A stretch of 21,133 nucleotides of DNA. It comes from a virus. Where the stretch lies: positions 1-21,133 of the IMG/VR virus record IMGVR_UViG_3300033156_000787. One strand, written 5' to 3'. Under the pieces are notes generated by a model that did not search any database, was not told where the DNA came from, and saw nothing but the letters and a program-made list of their open reading frames with translations. This document shows positions 2 to 8,364 of this stretch, in pieces. The stretch's first letter is position 1; each line of letters starts with the position of its first letter. Made by a program: the position numbers and the translations under genes.

Positions 2-1558
2 ATCGAGTTATACCAGATATACGCGCTTGGTGAGTTTGCTACACCGCAGACAATTATTTACACGAATTGGGACATAATTAATGAGCCACCGCGGAGCTTT
101 GACGATATTATCTATGGACTCGACTTTGGATACAACAACCCGACATGCCTTCTCAAGATAGGCTGGAGAGATCAGGAGATATACATCTTAGACGAACTTT
201 ATCAGACGCACCTAACAAATTCAGAATTGATCGATAGGCTAAAAGAGTTAAACGTATCTAAGAACAGCCCTATATTTGCCGACTCCGCAGAACCGGATCG
301 CATAAAAGAAATACAACAGGCGGGATACTGGATACAAGGTGTGGCTAAGAATGTAAAGAACGGAATTGACCAAGTAAAACGCAGGAAAATTCACATACTA
401 TCTCATTGTGTGAATACTATACGTGAAATTAAAAATTACTCTTGGCGTAAAAAAGGTGATATAATCTTAGACGAACCAGTGAAATTCGATGATCATTGTT
501 TTGATAATAAAACTGAAATTTTAACAGAAAATGGCTGGAAATTATTTAAGGAATTGAAATCCGGGGAGAAAGTTGCTACGATGGGTGCTGATGGATATTT
601 AGAGTGGAATGAGCCTTATGAGTATATCGACCAAGAGTATGACGGGATAATGTATGTCCACGAAGGTAATAATTTAAATTTTGCAGTAACGAGAAATCAC
701 CGCTTTTGGAATGCGAGCCAATACTCAGCTAAGAAAGTAAGAAAACCGCGGTTTTATTTTTGGACATATGAAGAATTACCTCAGTTATCATTTGTGTTAA
801 GGGTGGCTCGTACAAAATCGGGAGAGAAAGTGGATTTATTATTTGCTGAATTCGTTGGTTTTTGGCTTGCAGAAGGATGTAAAAGTTTAACAAGAGGCCG
901 AAAATATGTGCATGTAGACAATAAAGATAAAGAATATTTAGCAAAATTCAAAGAGAAATTTGGTGGTAGTTTATATAAAACTTCAACAGCTTGGCGTTTA
1001 TCTATTCGTTCAGATTATTTATATGATGCTTTACCACGCGGTTTGACAGATACAAAATATATACCAAATTATGTGTTTAAATGGGATCAAGCTGGTGTTG
1101 AGGCATTTCTTAAGGGAACTCTAAAAGGTGATGGAAGAGTCAGTAAGAAAGGAATTAGTATTGATTTAGCATCTAAGCAATTAATAGATGATTTACAAAG
1201 ATTATTATTCTTGCATGGTTTTGCTACTAATGTTTATAATATATATGCATGGCGTTTATCAAAAACACCTTCCGGTTATAGTTTTTGTAAGCCAATATGG
1301 AGATTGTCGATATCGAAAGAAACACGCGGCACAAATGGAATGGGCTTTGTAGAGTTAAGAAAAGATAAAATCAAAATTGTTCATTATAAAGGGCGAATTT
1401 ATAGTGTTAATGTTAAAAATCATATAATAGCTGTTAGGCGTAATGGTAGAATTATGTGGACGGGGAATTCGATGGACAGTCTAAGATACGCGGTTACTGG
1501 AAAAATCATGACTGCCAAGCCGCAATTTACCACAGCCAAGCATACCATTAAATTGTAA
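2..1558 (+). CDS. terL: Large terminase subunit, C-terminal nuclease half, split by an intein (5' partial)
   Basis: The frame is open from base 2, so the gene starts upstream and the N-terminal packaging ATPase is outside the window. What remains is the RNase H-like nuclease that cuts concatemeric phage DNA during packaging. Visible motifs are GLDFGYNNPT (first catalytic Asp, codon at 122-124), DELY, FADSAEPDRI (second acidic motif) and the closing motif, which reads DDH-SMDSLRYA once the intein is removed. The intein occupies 497-1468; the host protein contributes about 194 residues here. A TTG at 227 is only an internal codon, because terminase-like sequence continues upstream in the same frame. 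The portal gene follows after 15 bases, the usual terminase-portal order. The family call rests on motifs and gene order and is strong. Confidence 0.93.
   Translation: MELYQIYALGEFATPQTIIYTNWDIINEPPRSFDDIIYGLDFGYNNPTCLLKIGWRDQEIYILDELYQTHLTNSELIDRLKELNVSKNSPIFADSAEPDRIKEIQQAGYWIQGVAKNVKNGIDQVKRRKIHILSHCVNTIREIKNYSWRKKGDIILDEPVKFDDHCFDNKTEILTENGWKLFKELKSGEKVATMGADGYLEWNEPYEYIDQEYDGIMYVHEGNNLNFAVTRNHRFWNASQYSAKKVRKPRFYFWTYEELPQLSFVLRVARTKSGEKVDLLFAEFVGFWLAEGCKSLTRGRKYVHVDNKDKEYLAKFKEKFGGSLYKTSTAWRLSIRSDYLYDALPRGLTDTKYIPNYVFKWDQAGVEAFLKGTLKGDGRVSKKGISIDLASKQLIDDLQRLLFLHGFATNVYNIYAWRLSKTPSGYSFCKPIWRLSISKETRGTNGMGFVELRKDKIKIVHYKGRIYSVNVKNHIIAVRRNGRIMWTGNSMDSLRYAVTGKIMTAKPQFTTAKHTIKL
497..1468 (+). 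mobile_element. Intein with LAGLIDADG homing endonuclease, inserted in the terminase nuclease motif
   Basis: An in-frame protein insertion of 324 residues that should splice itself out of the terminase. It starts at Cys1 (codon 497-499, CFDNKTEILTENGWKLF, a block A pattern), has a block B TxxH (VTRNHRFW), and ends in a block F/G-like stretch finishing MWTGN before a Ser +1 residue (codon 1469-1471). Two LAGLIDADG-type motifs lie between: FVGFWLAEGC (about 850-880) and FLKGTLKGDGRV (about 1102-1140), typical of a DOD-type homing endonuclease. The penultimate residue is Gly rather than the usual His, a known but less common variant that may slow C-terminal cleavage. By eye the insert is more A+T-rich than the terminase on its 5' side, as expected for an acquired element. 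Boundaries are inferred from Cys1, Asn-Ser and the restored DDHSMD motif. Confidence 0.92.
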
Positions 1559-1573
1559 GGGGAGGTTTTGCTC

Positions 1574-2734
1574 ATGAAAACTAAAGCCCAAGAATTGACT
1601 AATCAGTTTTCGTATACATGGGCAAATTTATTACAAGATATAGGTGAAATATATAATATTCCAGATTTAGATTCTCAAACTTGCAGTGAAATGCTAAAAG
1701 ATGAATCAATTTTTTCGGGATTGAAATTCTTTGCAAGCAATGTAGCTAACTCTATTGGTCAGTTTATTCATGATAAGGAGGAGATACAAGATTTTGTTCA
1801 AGAAAATTTCGAAGAATTATCTACTTCCTTTGCTATCACGCTTGCAGAAATGGTAATAAAAATGAAGACATTTGGGTTTTGTGTTGCAGAAATCGTGTGG
1901 AAGGTAAAACAAAATCATTTAATGCTTTCTAAATTAGTGATCTTAGATCCACTTCATACAACTTTTAATATGGAAAACGGAGAGATAAAATCAGTTAATC
2001 AGTATACTGCTATAAAGGGCAGAATTGAAATACCAGCTAATAAATGTTTTATTTTACGCAATGGATCAGGCTTATATGGAGAAAGCGCTTTAATTCCGGT
2101 TTATCGTAGTTGGAAAATGAAAAAAGTTCTGATGAAATTCTGGGCAATAGCAATGGAAAGATATGCTGTACCAGTTTTAGTCGGAAAGACACAAGGTGAT
2201 ACCGATAAACTTTCTCAAGCATTAGCGGGGCTTTGGACTAATGGTATTATCGCTTCAACCCCAGATACAGATATAAATGTGTTAGAGCCGAAAAACACAG
2301 TTACAGAGACATTTACCAAAGCTATTGATCATCTCGATATGATGATATATCGTGGCTTGCTACTTCCAAGATTGTTAGGCGGACCTCAGGCAAGTATAGG
2401 CTCGTACGCACTTGGAAAAGTACAACTTGATCTCTTCCTATCTGCTGTAAGGCAAGAAGCTAACCGAATCGCCGAGGAGGTTATTGACCAGATTGTGGCA
2501 AAGATTATAGAATATAACTTTATTGATGTTGACTCATATGGTTCATTTACTCCTGTGAGCGAAATGACCCCAGAGGATAAGGCTAAGTTTACAGATATTC
2601 TATCTGATCTTTCAGATATGGGTATTCTCGACCCTGTATCAGATGAAAATTGGATACGAAATATGTTAGGGCTTCCAATAACAGAGCAACCTGTTATAGA
2701 ACCAGAAGCTACAAGTGAGGAACAAGAAAAATGA
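1574..2734 (+). CDS. Portal protein, Mu gp29-like (DUF935 type)
   Basis: 386 residues. It should form the dodecameric ring at the head vertex through which DNA enters and leaves. The first half has the portal pattern of the Mu gp29/DUF935 family: FSGLKFF near the N terminus, an EIVWK strand, then NGSGLYGESALIPVYRSW followed by KKVLMKFWAIAMERYAVPVLVGK. Toward the C terminus LLLPRLLGG and GSYALGKVQLDLF match the same family. It is shorter than Mu gp29 (about 500 residues). The ATG at 1574 is preferred over an in-frame TTG at 1568 because the AGGGGAGGT site (ending 1566) lies 7 bases from the ATG but only 1 from the TTG. Its stop overlaps the next start as ATGA, suggesting translational coupling. 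Assigned by motif memory and by position after the terminase. Confidence 0.88.
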   Translation: MKTKAQELTNQFSYTWANLLQDIGEIYNIPDLDSQTCSEMLKDESIFSGLKFFASNVANSIGQFIHDKEEIQDFVQENFEELSTSFAITLAEMVIKMKTFGFCVAEIVWKVKQNHLMLSKLVILDPLHTTFNMENGEIKSVNQYTAIKGRIEIPANKCFILRNGSGLYGESALIPVYRSWKMKKVLMKFWAIAMERYAVPVLVGKTQGDTDKLSQALAGLWTNGIIASTPDTDINVLEPKNTVTETFTKAIDHLDMMIYRGLLLPRLLGGPQASIGSYALGKVQLDLFLSAVRQEANRIAEEVIDQIVAKIIEYNFIDVDSYGSFTPVSEMTPEDKAKFTDILSDLSDMGILDPVSDENWIRNMLGLPITEQPVIEPEATSEEQEK

Positions 2735-3636
2735 AATATATCGGGACTGCTAAAAGACTGCTTTCAGTAATTGATGAATGGACATTACGTAAGACTAAGA
2801 AATATATACGTGCTAAATTAAGTGAGCTTGTACAGCAGCTAAGATTGGGACATTCAACTAACTTTACAATCTCAGATATTGTATATACTACATATTTGAT
2901 GGCATATACATGTGGGCGTATAATAGCAATTGGAAATAATAGGAAACAAAGAATTATAATAAAGAAAGCAGAACCAGATGAGCAATTAATAACGTTATAT
3001 AAGTTGTTAATTAAGCCAAATGCGCAAATTATTGAAAAACTAATTCGTGTACCTGTATCTAAGCTACCCATGGATAGTGTACTTGAGCTTTTTGCACCCA
3101 GTATCGCGGCTTTGACTGTGTTCGAAACATATTCAATGAGTTTAAATCTATTAGATCAGACCACAACGAAGAAGACACAGCGTTGGGTATTAGATACAAT
3201 TCAACAAGGCATGAGCGAACGAGAAGCGACGATATATTTAAAACAGAAATTGGGTGCAGAATTAGAAAACAGGGCACAGAAAATTGCACGAACTGAGGCA
3301 ACACGCGCATATAATTTGGGTACTTACGAGGAATCTTTTGATTCTGGAATTGTTGAAGGATATAGGTTTAATGCAGTTTTAGACGAACGGACAACCGAGA
3401 TATGCAGAGCGAGGCACGGAATATATATACCTAAAAATGATATTGGAATACTCGCTCAGAATACTCCGCCGCTTCATGTAAATTGTCGAAGCTTGCTTGA
3501 ACCGGTAACAACATTTGATAAAAAGCCAACAAAAACAGTATATGATCTACCAGTAGATGAAAAAATTCAACCGCAGACGCGTGATGGGGATACAGAGTTT
3601 GTGTATAATTATTTGCAAGCAAAGGTGGGTGGTTAA
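2731..3636 (+). CDS. Minor head protein, Mu gpF / SPP1 gp7-like
   Basis: 301 residues. The C-terminal half carries the phage head-morphogenesis domain found in Mu gpF and SPP1 gp7, a few copies of which sit near the portal and take part in early head assembly or DNA entry. Diagnostic elements in order: ARTEATRAYN (about 186-195), DERTTEICRARHG (218-230) and PPLHVNCRS (246-254), which supply the conserved Arg, Asp, Cys and His positions of this domain. The N-terminal 140 residues are helical and not diagnostic. The start overlaps the portal stop (ATGA), and the next gene begins 2 bases after its stop, so portal, minor head and the ligase-protease gene look co-translated. The stretch is very A+T-rich. 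Confidence is high for the family and low for the exact role. Confidence 0.88.
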   Translation: MKYIGTAKRLLSVIDEWTLRKTKKYIRAKLSELVQQLRLGHSTNFTISDIVYTTYLMAYTCGRIIAIGNNRKQRIIIKKAEPDEQLITLYKLLIKPNAQIIEKLIRVPVSKLPMDSVLELFAPSIAALTVFETYSMSLNLLDQTTTKKTQRWVLDTIQQGMSEREATIYLKQKLGAELENRAQKIARTEATRAYNLGTYEESFDSGIVEGYRFNAVLDERTTEICRARHGIYIPKNDIGILAQNTPPLHVNCRSLLEPVTTFDKKPTKTVYDLPVDEKIQPQTRDGDTEFVYNYLQAKVGG

Positions 3637-3638
3637 AA

Positions 3639-6155
3639 TTGAAGCTTGAGGAGATAACACCAGCACGATTAAATAAAGTTAGTGATAAGGAATTATTGGC
3701 TATACATCTTAGATTACACCAGTTATATGGAAATACAACAGAGTTTACTAAAGAAGATATTATTAATTTTCATAAACTTGTGATTGAGGAAATGAAGAAG
3801 CGTGGAATGAATCACAATATAGAAGATGCTCTTGATATACATACACGTGAATTATTAAAGAATGTTAATGATACGATGGTTGTGCCTGATTTTGTTAGTA
3901 TAGTTGGTTCAACAGTAAAAGGCAACAAAGAACCTGACGATCTCGATATTCTTATCCGCGCAGAGCGAATTGATAAGGGATTTCTTATCTACCCCGAGAA
4001 TATAGAATTACCTATCCGAAATATAGTTGATCCTAATAAACAGCAGAAATTACATTTTATCCCTAATCCGCAAGGTGCGCATGATGATTATATCCCGGTT
4101 TTTGATCTTGTATTAAGAGCTAAGAAACTTCAACTTGTTAAACTTAATTTTGCCAAGCGAGTCGAGCCTATCACAAGATATATACCTCAAAAGCCATTCA
4201 TGGCAGGATATACAGAGTTTTTTTCTGCAGAGGAGTTATGGAATAAATGGGCTGTAAAGCATGAAGATAAAACATTCTTAATCTCACCTAAAATTGATGG
4301 CTTTAGAACCATTATTCAAAAACGCGGGCAAAATGTTTCAATTTGGTTTGAAGATACTAAAGAAGACAGAGCTGAACAACTGCCGCAAATAGTTAACGCA
4401 ATAAAAGAATATGAGGATTGTATCGTAGAAGGTGAGTTAGTTGTAAAACGAGGAAATAAATTTCTTGCACGACCTGAAATTATATCTTTTCTCGCTGGAA
4501 AGATACAAGCCGAACCTGTTATATTTCTGTATGATATTTTGTATTTCCGTGATGATATACATAATGAGCCATTCTCAGATAGGTATAAATTACTAAAGAA
4601 GTTTAATAAAAAGCCGTTTAGTGTTTTACCACAATATAAAGCTAAGACAAAACAAAGCTTCTTAGATGCATGTAGAAAAGCAGTTTCATATAATGCACCT
4701 GTTGAGGGTGTTGTGACGCGTGTTTCAGATATGTCGTATCACTTTGGAGCAACTGAAGAGTATGCAAAATTTAAGCTCTGGGTAGAACTTAAAGTTAAGG
4801 TTGTTAAAATACATACTACTAAAAATGGTTATGTCTATGAGTGTGCTTTACGTAATAAAGATACAGATGTGATTATAGGAAAAACATTCGTATCTAAGAG
4901 TAAACTTGTTAATGAAGGGGAAGTTTTGAATGTAGCAGTTGAAGAGCTTTTATTGTATCCAGATGGTACGGTTAAATGGGGTAAACCTTTCCCACTGGGA
5001 CCTGATAAATCACGACCTGCATATACAGTAACACAAGCTATCGATATAGCCAGACGTGGTAAATGCTTAAAAGAAATAATAACGAAGTTAAAGGATGAAG
5101 GTGATACAAGCGGTGAAGAAGGCGAGCGAAAATGGAAACAGATTTGGTATTCAATTTATCCTCGCTCTGGCAGGGGGCGTTTTGTCTACCAGTGGCATTT
5201 TCGAGGTTTAAATGAGGAAGAGATAAATTTATCTGCTGAAGAGCTACTGAAACGTGGACATTCTGTCCATGGTGATTTGCGTTTTGAGGGTGAAAATGCA
5301 CTGTGGGGATTTACAGTATTCTTAGGTAAACCTGAGGATGTTTTGAAAGGAAAAGATGTTACTAATCTTGGAGAATTTAAATTACAGGGTACATTCAAAC
5401 TTGTACAGCCGAAAGAATGGCTTAAGATAGGTGAACCACCATATGTTGTTAAGCCCGGGGATGTGGGAGCAACTAACAAAAGTTATGCTAAGTTTTTTAA
5501 GATAGATTCGGGTACTTATAATATGGGCGTATGGCGTGAACATATGGTTGAAATTTTTATACATGGTAGTAAAATTAAAGGTAGGCATTTAATTGAATAC
5601 GCTCCTGTAGGCACAAAAAGAATCTGGCTAATCGAAAAACCCGAAGATCAGACACCATATGCAGAAAAGCACCAGATTGAGAATGTAATTAAGGGACTGC
5701 GCGAAAAAGGACAAACTTATTTGCTGTGGGCGGAGCCGGGAGAGAAGCCGAAGCTAATTGATGTTAGAAAAATATCTTCAAAAACTATACCAGTATACCG
5801 CGCAAAACCTCATTATGTCCTCGCTCCCGTTCTTGTACCTAATGAACCTGATTGGTATGGTGATATAATATCTGAAGAGGAGATACGAAAGGCGGCTACA
5901 AAATGGTTACACGAATATCGCAAAGTGGGTATTTTTCATAAAAATGAACTTGAAGATACTCAAGCTCGTGTAGTAGACTCTTTTATAGCTCCTGTTGATT
6001 TAGTGTTGGATAATAAGAAAATTAAACGTGGTACCTGGCTATTGGGTATTGAGATAAAAGATAATACATTATGGGGTATGATAGAGACAGGAAAGATATC
6101 TGGCTTAAGTATGGAAGGAGTCGCAATTAGACGGGAGGTACAAGAGAATGGGTAA
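3639..6155 (+). CDS. Multidomain nucleotidyltransferase / ATP-dependent DNA ligase / 3'-phosphoesterase-like / XkdF-type prohead protease
   Basis: 838 residues in one frame, TTG start after an AAGGTGGGTGG site. Domains in order: helical SDKELLAIHLRLHQLYG region (about 1-75); a Pol-beta-type nucleotidyltransferase motif, VGSTVKGNKEPDDLDILI (89-106), with GS and DxD; an ATP ligase core with motif I KIDG (Lys218), III VEGELV (263-268), IIIa FLYDILYF (296-303), IV VEGVVTR (355-361) and V FKLWVELKVKV (378-388), followed by an OB-like segment to about 455; a LigD-type phosphoesterase-like domain (about 500-670) with QWHFRG and HGDLRFE (His520, His544, Asp546, Arg548) and RIWLIEK; and a C-terminal XkdF/S78-like protease (about 715-838) with IFHK (His767), SFIAPVDL and KISGLSMEG (Ser824). 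All ligase motifs look intact, so it is probably active. The position between minor head protein and scaffold is that of a prohead protease. Why DNA-joining domains are fused to it is unknown. Confidence 0.87.
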   Translation: MKLEEITPARLNKVSDKELLAIHLRLHQLYGNTTEFTKEDIINFHKLVIEEMKKRGMNHNIEDALDIHTRELLKNVNDTMVVPDFVSIVGSTVKGNKEPDDLDILIRAERIDKGFLIYPENIELPIRNIVDPNKQQKLHFIPNPQGAHDDYIPVFDLVLRAKKLQLVKLNFAKRVEPITRYIPQKPFMAGYTEFFSAEELWNKWAVKHEDKTFLISPKIDGFRTIIQKRGQNVSIWFEDTKEDRAEQLPQIVNAIKEYEDCIVEGELVVKRGNKFLARPEIISFLAGKIQAEPVIFLYDILYFRDDIHNEPFSDRYKLLKKFNKKPFSVLPQYKAKTKQSFLDACRKAVSYNAPVEGVVTRVSDMSYHFGATEEYAKFKLWVELKVKVVKIHTTKNGYVYECALRNKDTDVIIGKTFVSKSKLVNEGEVLNVAVEELLLYPDGTVKWGKPFPLGPDKSRPAYTVTQAIDIARRGKCLKEIITKLKDEGDTSGEEGERKWKQIWYSIYPRSGRGRFVYQWHFRGLNEEEINLSAEELLKRGHSVHGDLRFEGENALWGFTVFLGKPEDVLKGKDVTNLGEFKLQGTFKLVQPKEWLKIGEPPYVVKPGDVGATNKSYAKFFKIDSGTYNMGVWREHMVEIFIHGSKIKGRHLIEYAPVGTKRIWLIEKPEDQTPYAEKHQIENVIKGLREKGQTYLLWAEPGEKPKLIDVRKISSKTIPVYRAKPHYVLAPVLVPNEPDWYGDIISEEEIRKAATKWLHEYRKVGIFHKNELEDTQARVVDSFIAPVDLVLDNKKIKRGTWLLGIEIKDNTLWGMIETGKISGLSMEGVAIRREVQENG

Positions 6156-6801
6156 GAAAAGGAAATTACATAAGTTAGAAAATTTAGAGGTTTTTTCTAT
6201 ACATCTTGTAGATGATCCCGCTGTTGAGGAGGCAAAATTCCTTGTAAAAAAAAGTAAAGGAGGGAAAAACATGGATAAAAGAGAATTAGTCGATGAGATG
6301 AACGAAGAGGAACAAATCAGCGAGAGAATCCAAGAAGTTGAAAAATCAGCTGATGAAGCACTTAAGCTGGTTGGAAAATTTCTTGATGATATTAAAGAGC
6401 TCGCTGATGATCTACCAGATAAGATTAAAGATGCAGTTGGAAAGCTTGCAGATGCATTTAAGGCCAGCTATGGCTACCCTGTGCCTAAATCAAAAGACCC
6501 TGAATTAGCTAAACTCTATGAGGAGCTTCAAAAACACAAAGAAGAGACTAACATACTAAAAGCTGAATTGTGGGCAAAGGAAAGGATAGCAGAAGGTAAA
6601 CCACCCGCGGTAGTGAATAAGCTGGTTGAATTATTGAAATCAACACCCGCGATGAAGGATACCGCAGAAGAAATCTTGAAAGCTATTCCAAGTGTTGATC
6701 TATCTCAAAAAGCATCAGAAAAAATAACCAAGGATAAGCTCGAGGAAATGAAGGCAAGAGTAAATGCAGTCGCAGATGCTGTGTGGGGAGGTGAAAAATA
6801 A
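6148..6801 (+). CDS. Probable scaffold protein with a nested internal start
   Basis: 217 residues, highly charged and mostly helical, rich in Glu and Lys with heptad-like stretches, and without a recognised enzyme motif. Its position right after the prohead protease and before decoration and capsid genes is where scaffolds lie. The first 35 residues contain LENLEVFSIHLVDDPAVEEAKF, a segment that resembles the tail end of XkdF-type protease products in other phages, so the ORF may join a protease-derived tail to a scaffold. A second start, ATG at 6271, has a much better ribosome binding site (AAAGGAGGG, 7-base spacing) and would give a 176-residue protein beginning MDKRELVDEM. The start at 6148 overlaps the upstream stop. 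Scaffold is an inference from context and composition. Confidence 0.65.
   Translation: MGKKRKLHKLENLEVFSIHLVDDPAVEEAKFLVKKSKGGKNMDKRELVDEMNEEEQISERIQEVEKSADEALKLVGKFLDDIKELADDLPDKIKDAVGKLADAFKASYGYPVPKSKDPELAKLYEELQKHKEETNILKAELWAKERIAEGKPPAVVNKLVELLKSTPAMKDTAEEILKAIPSVDLSQKASEKITKDKLEEMKARVNAVADAVWGGEK
6256..6273 (+). promoter_or_regulatory. Strong internal ribosome binding site and ATG within the scaffold ORF
   Basis: AAAGGAGGG at 6256-6264 is followed after a short A-rich spacer by ATG at 6271, in frame with the longer ORF starting at 6148. This is one of the best Shine-Dalgarno matches in the window and lies inside a coding region, so a separate short product is likely. Confidence 0.6.
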
Positions 6802-7301
6802 TGTTGTTAGAAAGAGTTGAGCTTCTTAAAAAGGTTGATGTATCTGGTAATTTGGCTGCACCACAGATAATGGGCTGGGATGGAACAAAGTATATCGTAG
6901 CTGTTGGAACGAAACAAGATACTTTCAATGGTGATGACTCTACAACGGAGTTTACACTAACATACGGTGATATTGTACATGGTTCAGTTGTGATAGAGGT
7001 AGATGAAACTGAGCTTACAGAGGATACAGATTATACTGTCGATTATTCAGCTGGAAAAATAACATTCCAAACTGCACCAGCGAGCGGTACGGATAATATC
7101 GTGGTAGACTATAGTTATTTTGCTGCCGATCCAAGCGGAATACTGTTAGATGATATCACAGCCAGCCAAGATCCTGATTATGCCCGTCTAATATTGTTAG
7201 GAGTATATTACCTTGATAATTTTGAAACCGCCCCACTTGTAGATGTAATAGAGCGGTTGGCACGAAACAATATTTTCTTAGTACCACGCACAAGTGCTTA
7301 A
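6801..7301 (+). CDS. Probable head decoration protein (lambda gpD-like C-terminal part) with an inserted beta domain
   Basis: 166 residues. It lies immediately before the gpE-like major capsid gene, the place of gpD-type decoration proteins that bind the capsid surface and stabilise the full head. Two parts flank a central insert: residues 1-40 (QIMGWDGTKYIVAVG) and 110-166 (PSGILLDDITASQDPDYARLILLGVYY), a weak match to the gpD-like pattern of a Gly-rich loop and a strand naming the protein's level. Residues 42-107 form a separate beta-rich module (FNGDDSTTEFTL ... DYTVDYSAGKITFQTAP) that recurs in two tail proteins of this window. The start overlaps the upstream stop by one base (TAATG) behind GGGGAGGTG. 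The decoration role is inferred from position and weak similarity; the module itself is clear. Confidence 0.6.
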   Translation: MLLERVELLKKVDVSGNLAAPQIMGWDGTKYIVAVGTKQDTFNGDDSTTEFTLTYGDIVHGSVVIEVDETELTEDTDYTVDYSAGKITFQTAPASGTDNIVVDYSYFAADPSGILLDDITASQDPDYARLILLGVYYLDNFETAPLVDVIERLARNNIFLVPRTSA

Positions 7302-7324
7302 CCTTAAAAAAGGAGGGATAACTA

Positions 7325-8326
7325 ATGGCTTTTAATTGGCAATTTCTAACAGATTTATACAGAAAAGCAAAAGTAGAAGATTACTTTCTTACAAATATGC
7401 TTGGAAAACAGAAGCGGCTTTCACCTCTTCCCGAGATAAGAGTACGAATGGAATCCGGCTCAATGTCTGTAGCCGCGCTTGGTAAAATAGGTGATCCGCC
7501 ACGGGCAATAAATGCCAGTACTGCTGTTACGGAGACAACGCTTCAGCCAGCGCAGATATTTGAGTATGATACTATAACCGAAGATGATGTCTTTACAATA
7601 GCTAACCCTGAGATAGTTGCAGTGAATAGCACGGCGGAAACAGTTAGCAATGCAGAGTATATCCGCGCGGTTAAACTTGAAGAGCTTAAAAGACGTGTAA
7701 TGCGCCGGATTGAACTTATGTTCGCAGAGATAATTACAACCGGCGGGATAAATTACAATGATGGTGAAAGAGCTTACAGTGTTAGTTATGGTGTAACGCC
7801 CGGTTCTTTGGAGATTTCGTCTTCATCGACAGTATACTCAGATTTGTTGGATATTGCAGATGAGATGAGAAGCGCTGGACACAATCCAAGTATGATAATC
7901 ATAACTAAGAATGTTGAAACAGCTCTTATGGGTAATGACCAAATAATTGAAATGCTGAATACTCGTACTTTTGGACTTGGGCAAGCTAACTTGAAACAAT
8001 ATACCAATGCGCGGGAAATACTTAGACTTGAAGGCTTGCCTCCAATTGTATGTTACATGGGTACGTATACGAATTCGGAAGGATCATCAACTAAGTATGT
8101 TAATGACTCCGATTTTGTTATAATGGTAGATTCAACAGCGTTCCGACTCGGTTATGGTGCAATACAGAATTATCACTTAAGTGAGACACCCAAGGCGATA
8201 GATGTAGCTTCTTGGGAAGAAGTAGTTAACCACGGAACTGAAAAGGCTCTGTTCGTGCTTTCACGCCCGCTCCCTTATATCGTTAGCGCAGACGCTTTGA
8301 AGATATACAGCGTAACAATTAGCTGA
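7325..8326 (+). CDS. Major capsid protein, lambda gpE family (HK97 fold)
   Basis: 333 residues, close to the 341 of lambda gpE. It should form the icosahedral shell. The key stretch is the long helix and following turn, LEELKRRVMRRIELMFAEII then TTGGINYNDGERAYSV, which matches the spine helix and 'TTG-I-Y' region of the gpE-type capsid family (Phage_cap_E). Other supporting parts are the N-terminal FLTNMLGKQKRL and the C-terminal VLSRPLPYIVSADALKIYSV, a peripheral-domain strand typical of these proteins. AAAAAAGGAGGG lies 8 bases before the ATG, a very strong site as expected for the most abundant virion protein. A hairpin terminator follows directly. No protease-cleaved delta domain is evident, which suggests the separate scaffold does that job. 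Confidence 0.9.
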   Translation: MAFNWQFLTDLYRKAKVEDYFLTNMLGKQKRLSPLPEIRVRMESGSMSVAALGKIGDPPRAINASTAVTETTLQPAQIFEYDTITEDDVFTIANPEIVAVNSTAETVSNAEYIRAVKLEELKRRVMRRIELMFAEIITTGGINYNDGERAYSVSYGVTPGSLEISSSSTVYSDLLDIADEMRSAGHNPSMIIITKNVETALMGNDQIIEMLNTRTFGLGQANLKQYTNAREILRLEGLPPIVCYMGTYTNSEGSSTKYVNDSDFVIMVDSTAFRLGYGAIQNYHLSETPKAIDVASWEEVVNHGTEKALFVLSRPLPYIVSADALKIYSVTIS

Positions 8327-8332
8327 GCGTGT

Positions 8333-8364
8333 GGGGGCACAATTAATTGCCCCCTCCGCTTTTT
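8333..8364 (+). terminator. Intrinsic terminator after the capsid gene
   Basis: GGGGGCA (8333-8339) pairs with TGCCCCC (8348-8354) across an 8-base A/T-rich loop, followed within six bases by a run of five T (8360-8364). It lies 7 bases after the capsid stop and 13 bases before the next start. The U-run is short, so partial termination with read-through to the tail genes is plausible. Confidence 0.75.

Follow-up and report, generated by a model that had tools for sequence, protein, structure and literature searches.

Phage polyvalent proteins are multi-enzyme chains that are predicted to travel inside the head and to be injected along with the genome (Iyer 2017, PMC5512222). According to that study, an assemblin-like peptidase is always C-terminal and probably processes these proteins during virion assembly, and the repertoire also includes Pol-beta nucleotidyltransferase (NT), 2H, ADP-ribosyltransferase (ART) and DNA methylase domains. 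LigD (PMC8656161) combines in one chain an ATP-dependent ligase, a 3′-phosphoesterase (PE) with a Gln-x-His...His-x-Asp-x-Arg site and a POL domain of the AEP-primase type. According to Pitcher 2006, as cited in PMC7719229, the mycobacteriophages Omega and Corndog bring Ku and use host LigD for infection. Two further points of comparison are the XkdF (Peptidase_S78_2) proteases of head maturation, such as PBSX XkdF, PaP1 gp48 and that of PAK_P3, and a protein of the archaeal virus ANMV-1 annotated only as ‘ATP-dependent DNA ligase’ (KP703175, AJP62006).

Here we analyse a 21,133-nt stretch of DNA from an uncultured tailed virus (the window), in which one open frame encodes, from N to C terminus, an NT, an ATP-dependent DNA ligase with its OB domain, a LigD-type PE and an XkdF protease (Table 1). 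A preliminary description had proposed an uninterrupted 838-codon frame joining repair domains to a prohead protease, and both the frame and the domain searches bear this out. The TTG start is backed by the closest relatives (for example, L002), which have ATG at the equivalent residue, and the fusion is neither chance nor an assembly artefact because it was found again on dozens of independent contigs. Support is strong for the ligase, PE and protease and weaker for the NT. Key catalytic residues of the four domains are invariant in 50–78 relatives, with the exception of one PE position and the third Asp of the NT. The window’s own fusion protein has neither a UDG nor a methyltransferase (MTase) domain. 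A phmmer search with the full-length protein found no match in the PDB and domain profiles were needed; a Pyr_excise match at residues 38–62 was taken as chance, as it spans just 25 residues.

Table 1 Features of the window, with nucleotide positions and the basis of each assignment
Feature	Position	Strand	Basis
Terminase large subunit, C-terminal part, split by a Hint/LAGLIDADG intein	227..1558	+	Pfam/PHROG
Mu-type portal protein	1568..2734	+	Portal_Mu 7.6e-42
MuF-like head morphogenesis protein; ends 2 bases ahead of the fusion gene	2731..3636	+	Phage_Mu_F 7.8e-15
Complete fusion gene NT–ligase–PE–XkdF, 838 aa, TTG start	3639..6155	+	Open frame; relatives’ ATG at start residue
Residues 1–163, helical N-terminal part and predicted Pol-beta-type minimal NT (G90 S91, D101, D103)	3639..4127	+	61/61 motif; weak Pfam matches; AlphaFold2
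Residues 161–172, NT/ligase linker, low confidence	4119..4154	+	pLDDT <50
Residues 176–470, ATP-dependent DNA ligase (adenylation domain, Lys218 codon 4290–4292) and OB domain	4164..5048	+	Pfam, PDB profile, Foldseek
Residues 490–702, LigD-type PE (Q518, H520, H544, D546, R548)	5106..5744	+	LigD_N in relatives, PDB profile, Foldseek
Residues 713–715, PE/protease linker, low confidence; candidate release point	5775..5783	+	pLDDT <50
Residues 723–834, XkdF (Peptidase_S78_2) protease; His767 5937–5939, Ser824 6108–6110	5805..6140	+	Pfam 4.9e-22
Probable scaffold gene; 8-base overlap with the fusion’s stop; GGAGGT ribosome site before ATG	6148..6801	+	phrog_34096 C-terminal part E = 0.004; slot as in PaP1/PAK_P3
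Probable decoration/virion structural protein	6801..7301	+	phrog_11431 1.9e-6
Major capsid protein, gpE type	7325..8326	+	Phage_cap_E 6.6e-24
Terminator-like hairpin 3′ of the capsid gene	8333..8354	+	Consensus scan only

The ligase domain matches Pfam DNA_ligase_A_M over residues 207–379 (E = 3.9e-16). The family ligase profile retrieved solved DNA ligases from the PDB (down to 1.7e-30) and placed Lys218 opposite the lysine of motif I in the A. fulgidus enzyme, and Foldseek of the full model returned archaeal and human ATP-dependent DNA ligases as its top matches (E of 1e-16). The LigD ligase is among the matches of this domain, yet archaeal ligases score higher. An ATP-dependent ligase with Lys218, as read earlier from the motifs, is thus confirmed by profile, structure and alignment. 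K218, R278, E356, G357 and K377 are present in 68/68 ligases; KxNG replaces KxDG in about half of the ligases, and motif III is altered in some.

The window PE is too divergent to be recognized alone by the Pfam LigD_N model (E = 0.09), which 27 of 34 relatives match (best, 4.7e-5). Searched against 177,635 PDB sequences, the PE profile found three chains, all archaeal PE proteins, and each of the seven Foldseek matches below 1e-3 to the AlphaFold2 PE model (pLDDT 89) is a LigD PE structure. What had been described as a phosphoesterase-like QWH...HGDLRFE domain can therefore be placed as a LigD-type PE. H520, H544, D546 and R548, all conserved in 78/78 sequences, are the motif equivalents of P. 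aeruginosa LigD residues His42, His48, Asp50 and Arg52, and Q518 is that of Gln40 (site residues from the review PMC8656161). The window PE has no His counterpart to His84, an essential residue of the P. aeruginosa enzyme; T612 occupies the position (aligned by eye), and H635 (76/78) is a candidate stand-in. Position 616, at the place of LigD Tyr88, is mostly Tyr, Phe or Trp across the family; the LigD pair of His84 and Tyr88 is not preserved.

At the C terminus, residues 725–831 match Pfam Peptidase_S78_2 (PF14550) with E = 4.9e-22 and 78.7 bits against a cut-off of 24, and D738, H767, W812 and S824 occur in 50/50 relatives. H767 and S824, already singled out in the XkdF-like C terminus, are the putative catalytic residues of this domain, which we take to have an assemblin-like fold. 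The XkdF proteins of cultivated phages that we checked, PaP1 gp48 (L132), PAK_P3 (L136), Lactococcus 28201 (L134) and Rhizobium RHph_Y1_11 (L135), share the domain and, in PaP1 and PAK_P3, the operon slot, but are unlike the window protein in being proteases of 138–349 aa with no enzyme domains. The label ‘DNA methyltransferase’ is common on such short proteases, phrog_1530 included, and is apparently wrong. Two PHROG labels on XkdF proteins (phrog_1530, ‘DNA methyltransferase’, and phrog_14859, ‘RNA ligase’) at first resembled independent enzyme fusions; these were rejected, as the cultivated-phage examples are short XkdF proteases or protease–scaffold proteins and the labels are doubtful (no phrog_14859 members were among the examples).

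The NT, at about residues 78–160, is the least certain of the domain calls and is predicted to be of Pol-beta type. Its GS-x9-DxD motif (G90, S91, D101, D103), noted at the outset, is invariant in 61/61 sequences, although Pfam matches among relatives are weak (NTP_transf_2 in 6/30 and DNA_pol_B_palm in 3/30), and the AlphaFold2 model reproduces the beta-GS/beta-DxD layout with moderate confidence. The NT profile had no meaningful match in the PDB, and 16/61 sequences have Ser in place of the third acidic residue. No AEP-primase POL domain was matched anywhere in the fusion protein. The proposal that the protein has the same three activities as LigD therefore holds for the PE and ligase but is inexact for the polymerase, because a Pol-beta-type NT stands where LigD has an AEP-primase-type POL. 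Like LigD, the protein has the PE signature and an ATP-dependent ligase in one chain; unlike LigD, it has the order NT–ligase–PE and a head-protease fusion, and no Ku adjoins it in the window. By sequence, the protein falls short of LigD membership in two respects, the POL domain and PE His84.

To search for relatives we used profiles, as a genome scan with a single sequence found nothing. A four-sequence profile recovered 54 viral loci as well as two contigs from bacterial MAGs (Dehalococcoides JdFR-54 and Bacillota SURF_36); a PE profile gave 102 confirmed stretches, 80 of which were kept. More than 80 further viral or prophage contigs carry a comparable cassette; once duplicates were removed, there were 83 distinct PE-bearing loci, with a ligase in 70, an NT in 69, XkdF in 66, UDG in 42 and a small SAM-methyltransferase in 25, the NT and ligase counts being lower bounds because some contigs lack their 5′ end. 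The usual order is NT–[MTase]–ligase–[UDG]–PE–XkdF, with up to seven domains per chain compared with four in the window protein. Among the 79 loci whose 3′ end is closed, XkdF is fused in 65, a few of which have a chain divided between two frames, and absent from the other 14. State changes on the PE tree number at least 10 for the MTase, at least 5 for UDG and at least 7 for XkdF, which indicates that modules have been gained and lost repeatedly. The PE is the most constant module, usually beside XkdF; a ligase was undetected in L102, L095, L112 and L122. A viral structure search also returned an unnamed 827-aa protein over 655 aligned columns, so proteins of this type probably sit unnoticed in databases.

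The preliminary description had suggested looking for the same fusion in other phage head operons, and at all loci with tested flanks the cassette lies in the head module. Upstream neighbours (n = 54) include Portal_Mu (26), Phage_portal (6) and MuF (19), and several different capsid families lie downstream; the slot is thus kept while the capsid type varies. Members without XkdF occupy the same place, and in L009, L012, L030, L048 and L055 the next gene is protease- or scaffold-like (judged by eye). In the window, the gene order is terminase C-terminal part (with its intein), Mu portal, MuF, fusion, scaffold-like, decoration-like and gpE capsid, and the probable scaffold gene matches the scaffold part of protease–scaffold proteins. 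The stand-alone XkdF of Pseudomonas phages PaP1 and PAK_P3 fills the identical slot (portal–XkdF–scaffold–decoration–gpE capsid), relative to which the window protein has about 720 extra N-terminal residues. The terminase intein adjoins a conserved C-terminal nuclease motif (...KFDDHC / NSMDSLRYA). Promoter-like sites in the window are no more frequent than the shuffled expectation.

Several relatives carry additional modules. These include an Acb1 anti-CBASS domain with both HxT motifs in the L013 head polyprotein (3814–8016; residues 417–557, 2.6e-22), a 2H domain in L129, Dam methylases in L053, L054 and L059, a metallo-beta-lactamase (MBL) fold in L012, L017, L046, L048, L055, L079 and L098, with HxHxD in some, and an ART in L123 (1.6e-40). 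The L123 protein (1476–6890) is a head-module polyprotein of 1804 aa with two ART domains as well as methyltransferase and ligase segments, and in that of L079 (3525–5969) the MBL domain is accompanied by the family PE and by a canonical LigD_N domain that is clearly recognized (2.3e-15). Some relatives have an MTase, Dam, MBL or Acb1 module at the position of the NT/ligase linker (161–172), one of three low-confidence stretches in the AlphaFold2 model (the others are 485–489 and 713–715). The model suggests that these linkers are probably flexible. ART, 2H, Acb1 and Dam are known or predicted types of head-delivered effector or counter-defence protein.

The family thus resembles polyvalent proteins in every sequence-level feature that we examined: disparate enzyme domains share a chain, the genes lie among late virion structural genes and a peptidase (here XkdF, residues 723–834) is C-terminal. 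It differs from the polyvalent proteins described in the searched passages of PMC5512222, in which we found no LigD-type ligase or PE, in that its core is a strand-break and base-repair set, its protease is XkdF and its slot lies between portal and capsid genes. The general mode of action was therefore already predicted by Iyer 2017, and the earlier statement that no such system had been described was too strong; it stands for the repair-enzyme version, as we found no XkdF–ligase fusion or repair-enzyme polyvalent protein described in the literature searched, which left out most subscription journals. The ANMV-1 protein shares the NT–ligase–PE order and directly follows a portal-like gene, but it lacks XkdF and has a different C-terminal domain. 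As in Omega and Corndog (Pitcher 2006, as cited in PMC7719229), use of the NHEJ pathway by phage is the common element; unlike them, the family encodes its own ligase and PE in the head module.

We favour packaging and delivery, the reading put forward in the preliminary description and supported in part here: with a probability of roughly 0.6, the protein is a ‘polyvalent’ head polyprotein whose NT–ligase–PE part is packaged through its fusion to XkdF and would be injected with the genome, mending incoming DNA. The head-operon context, the C-terminal protease, the low-confidence linkers and the company of ART, 2H, Acb1 and Dam all argue for this reading. The three enzymes would enter the forming prohead as one chain with XkdF, active there beside the scaffold; such loading is suggested because XkdF-type proteases work inside the prohead. 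During maturation, XkdF would cleave the scaffold and probably also its own linkers, and the enzymes could be released at 161–172, 485–489 and 713–715. The enzyme part may be too large to exit the shell and would then be packaged with the DNA and enter the cell alongside the genome. There, before phage gene expression, the PE could clean blocked 3′ ends and the ligase seal nicks or joined ends; in relatives, UDG would first strip deaminated bases, and the Acb1, Dam and ART modules would target host defence or host proteins. Taken together, UDG, PE, Pol-beta-type NT and ligase read as base-excision and strand-break repair of the incoming genome, and the partner modules as counter-defence. In a broader version, put forward more tentatively and perhaps a one-in-three proposition, virions of a large uncultured tailed-virus group would carry the UDG–PE–NT–ligase kit, made in one polyprotein together with the head protease, and mend genome decay and strand breaks on entry: a packaged base-excision/end-joining pathway within a single chain.

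Several observations count against packaging and delivery: T612 at the PE His84 position, the KxNG ligases, the altered motif III, the Ser in 16/61 NTs and the 14 complete loci without XkdF. Because those 14, ANMV-1 included, lack the protease, the fusion is not needed for cassette function and release by a fused protease is not the whole story. They also lend something to a cytoplasmic role, in which a late-co-expressed repair or replication enzyme is cut from the chain before or during assembly and seals concatemer nicks in the producer cell; the cassette is a separate gene in these members, and a nick-mending ligase ahead of packaging is plausible. We nonetheless consider this unlikely, as it leaves unexplained why the cassette keeps its place between portal and capsid, why it is often fused to a prohead protease and why it is accompanied by modules suited to early host takeover (ART, Acb1 and Dam).

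Those same modules, with 2H and MBL, share chains with the cassette and could point instead to counter-defence, the NT–ligase–PE part editing or destroying nucleic acids or nucleotide signals made by the host (such as DNA or tRNA cut by nucleases, or modified nucleotides); protein modification has earlier been suggested for the minimal Pol-beta NTs of polyvalent proteins. We rate this somewhat lower again, given that the ligase is nearest to DNA ligases rather than RNA ligases and that a UDG–PE–ligase set is most simply read as DNA repair. Enzyme folds that are inert and serve as scaffold bulk or as a tether for targeting the protease would fit both the fusion to a head protease and the motif changes (KxNG, and the third Asp of the NT to Ser), but seem very improbable because key catalytic residues that structure alone does not demand are kept in 100% of 50–78 divergent sequences.

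A widespread, sequence-defined family now stands behind the proposal, so far little tested, that multi-enzyme proteins are injected by phages together with their DNA. Some virions may bring their own DNA-repair pathway, a suggestion that one virion proteome or recombinant protein could test. Protease fusion is also a suggested route for loading enzymes into capsids, which may be of use in engineering, and the family is a source of new ligase, PE and UDG enzymes.

Two further features occur in individual relatives. LAGLIDADG intein-like insertions lie within the ligase and PE domains of L044 (residues about 397–757) and L055 (residues about 1139–1442). Ku was found in one of the 24 viral records tested and not in the other 23, which include the 21-kb window, all records being fragments. 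In that one record (L133, 4786–6613; the record of L055), a viral Ku gene (E = 2.5e-24) lies directly ahead of a free-standing LigD-type ATP-dependent ligase (judged by eye); this virus, which also bears the head cassette, apparently encodes an NHEJ pair of its own.
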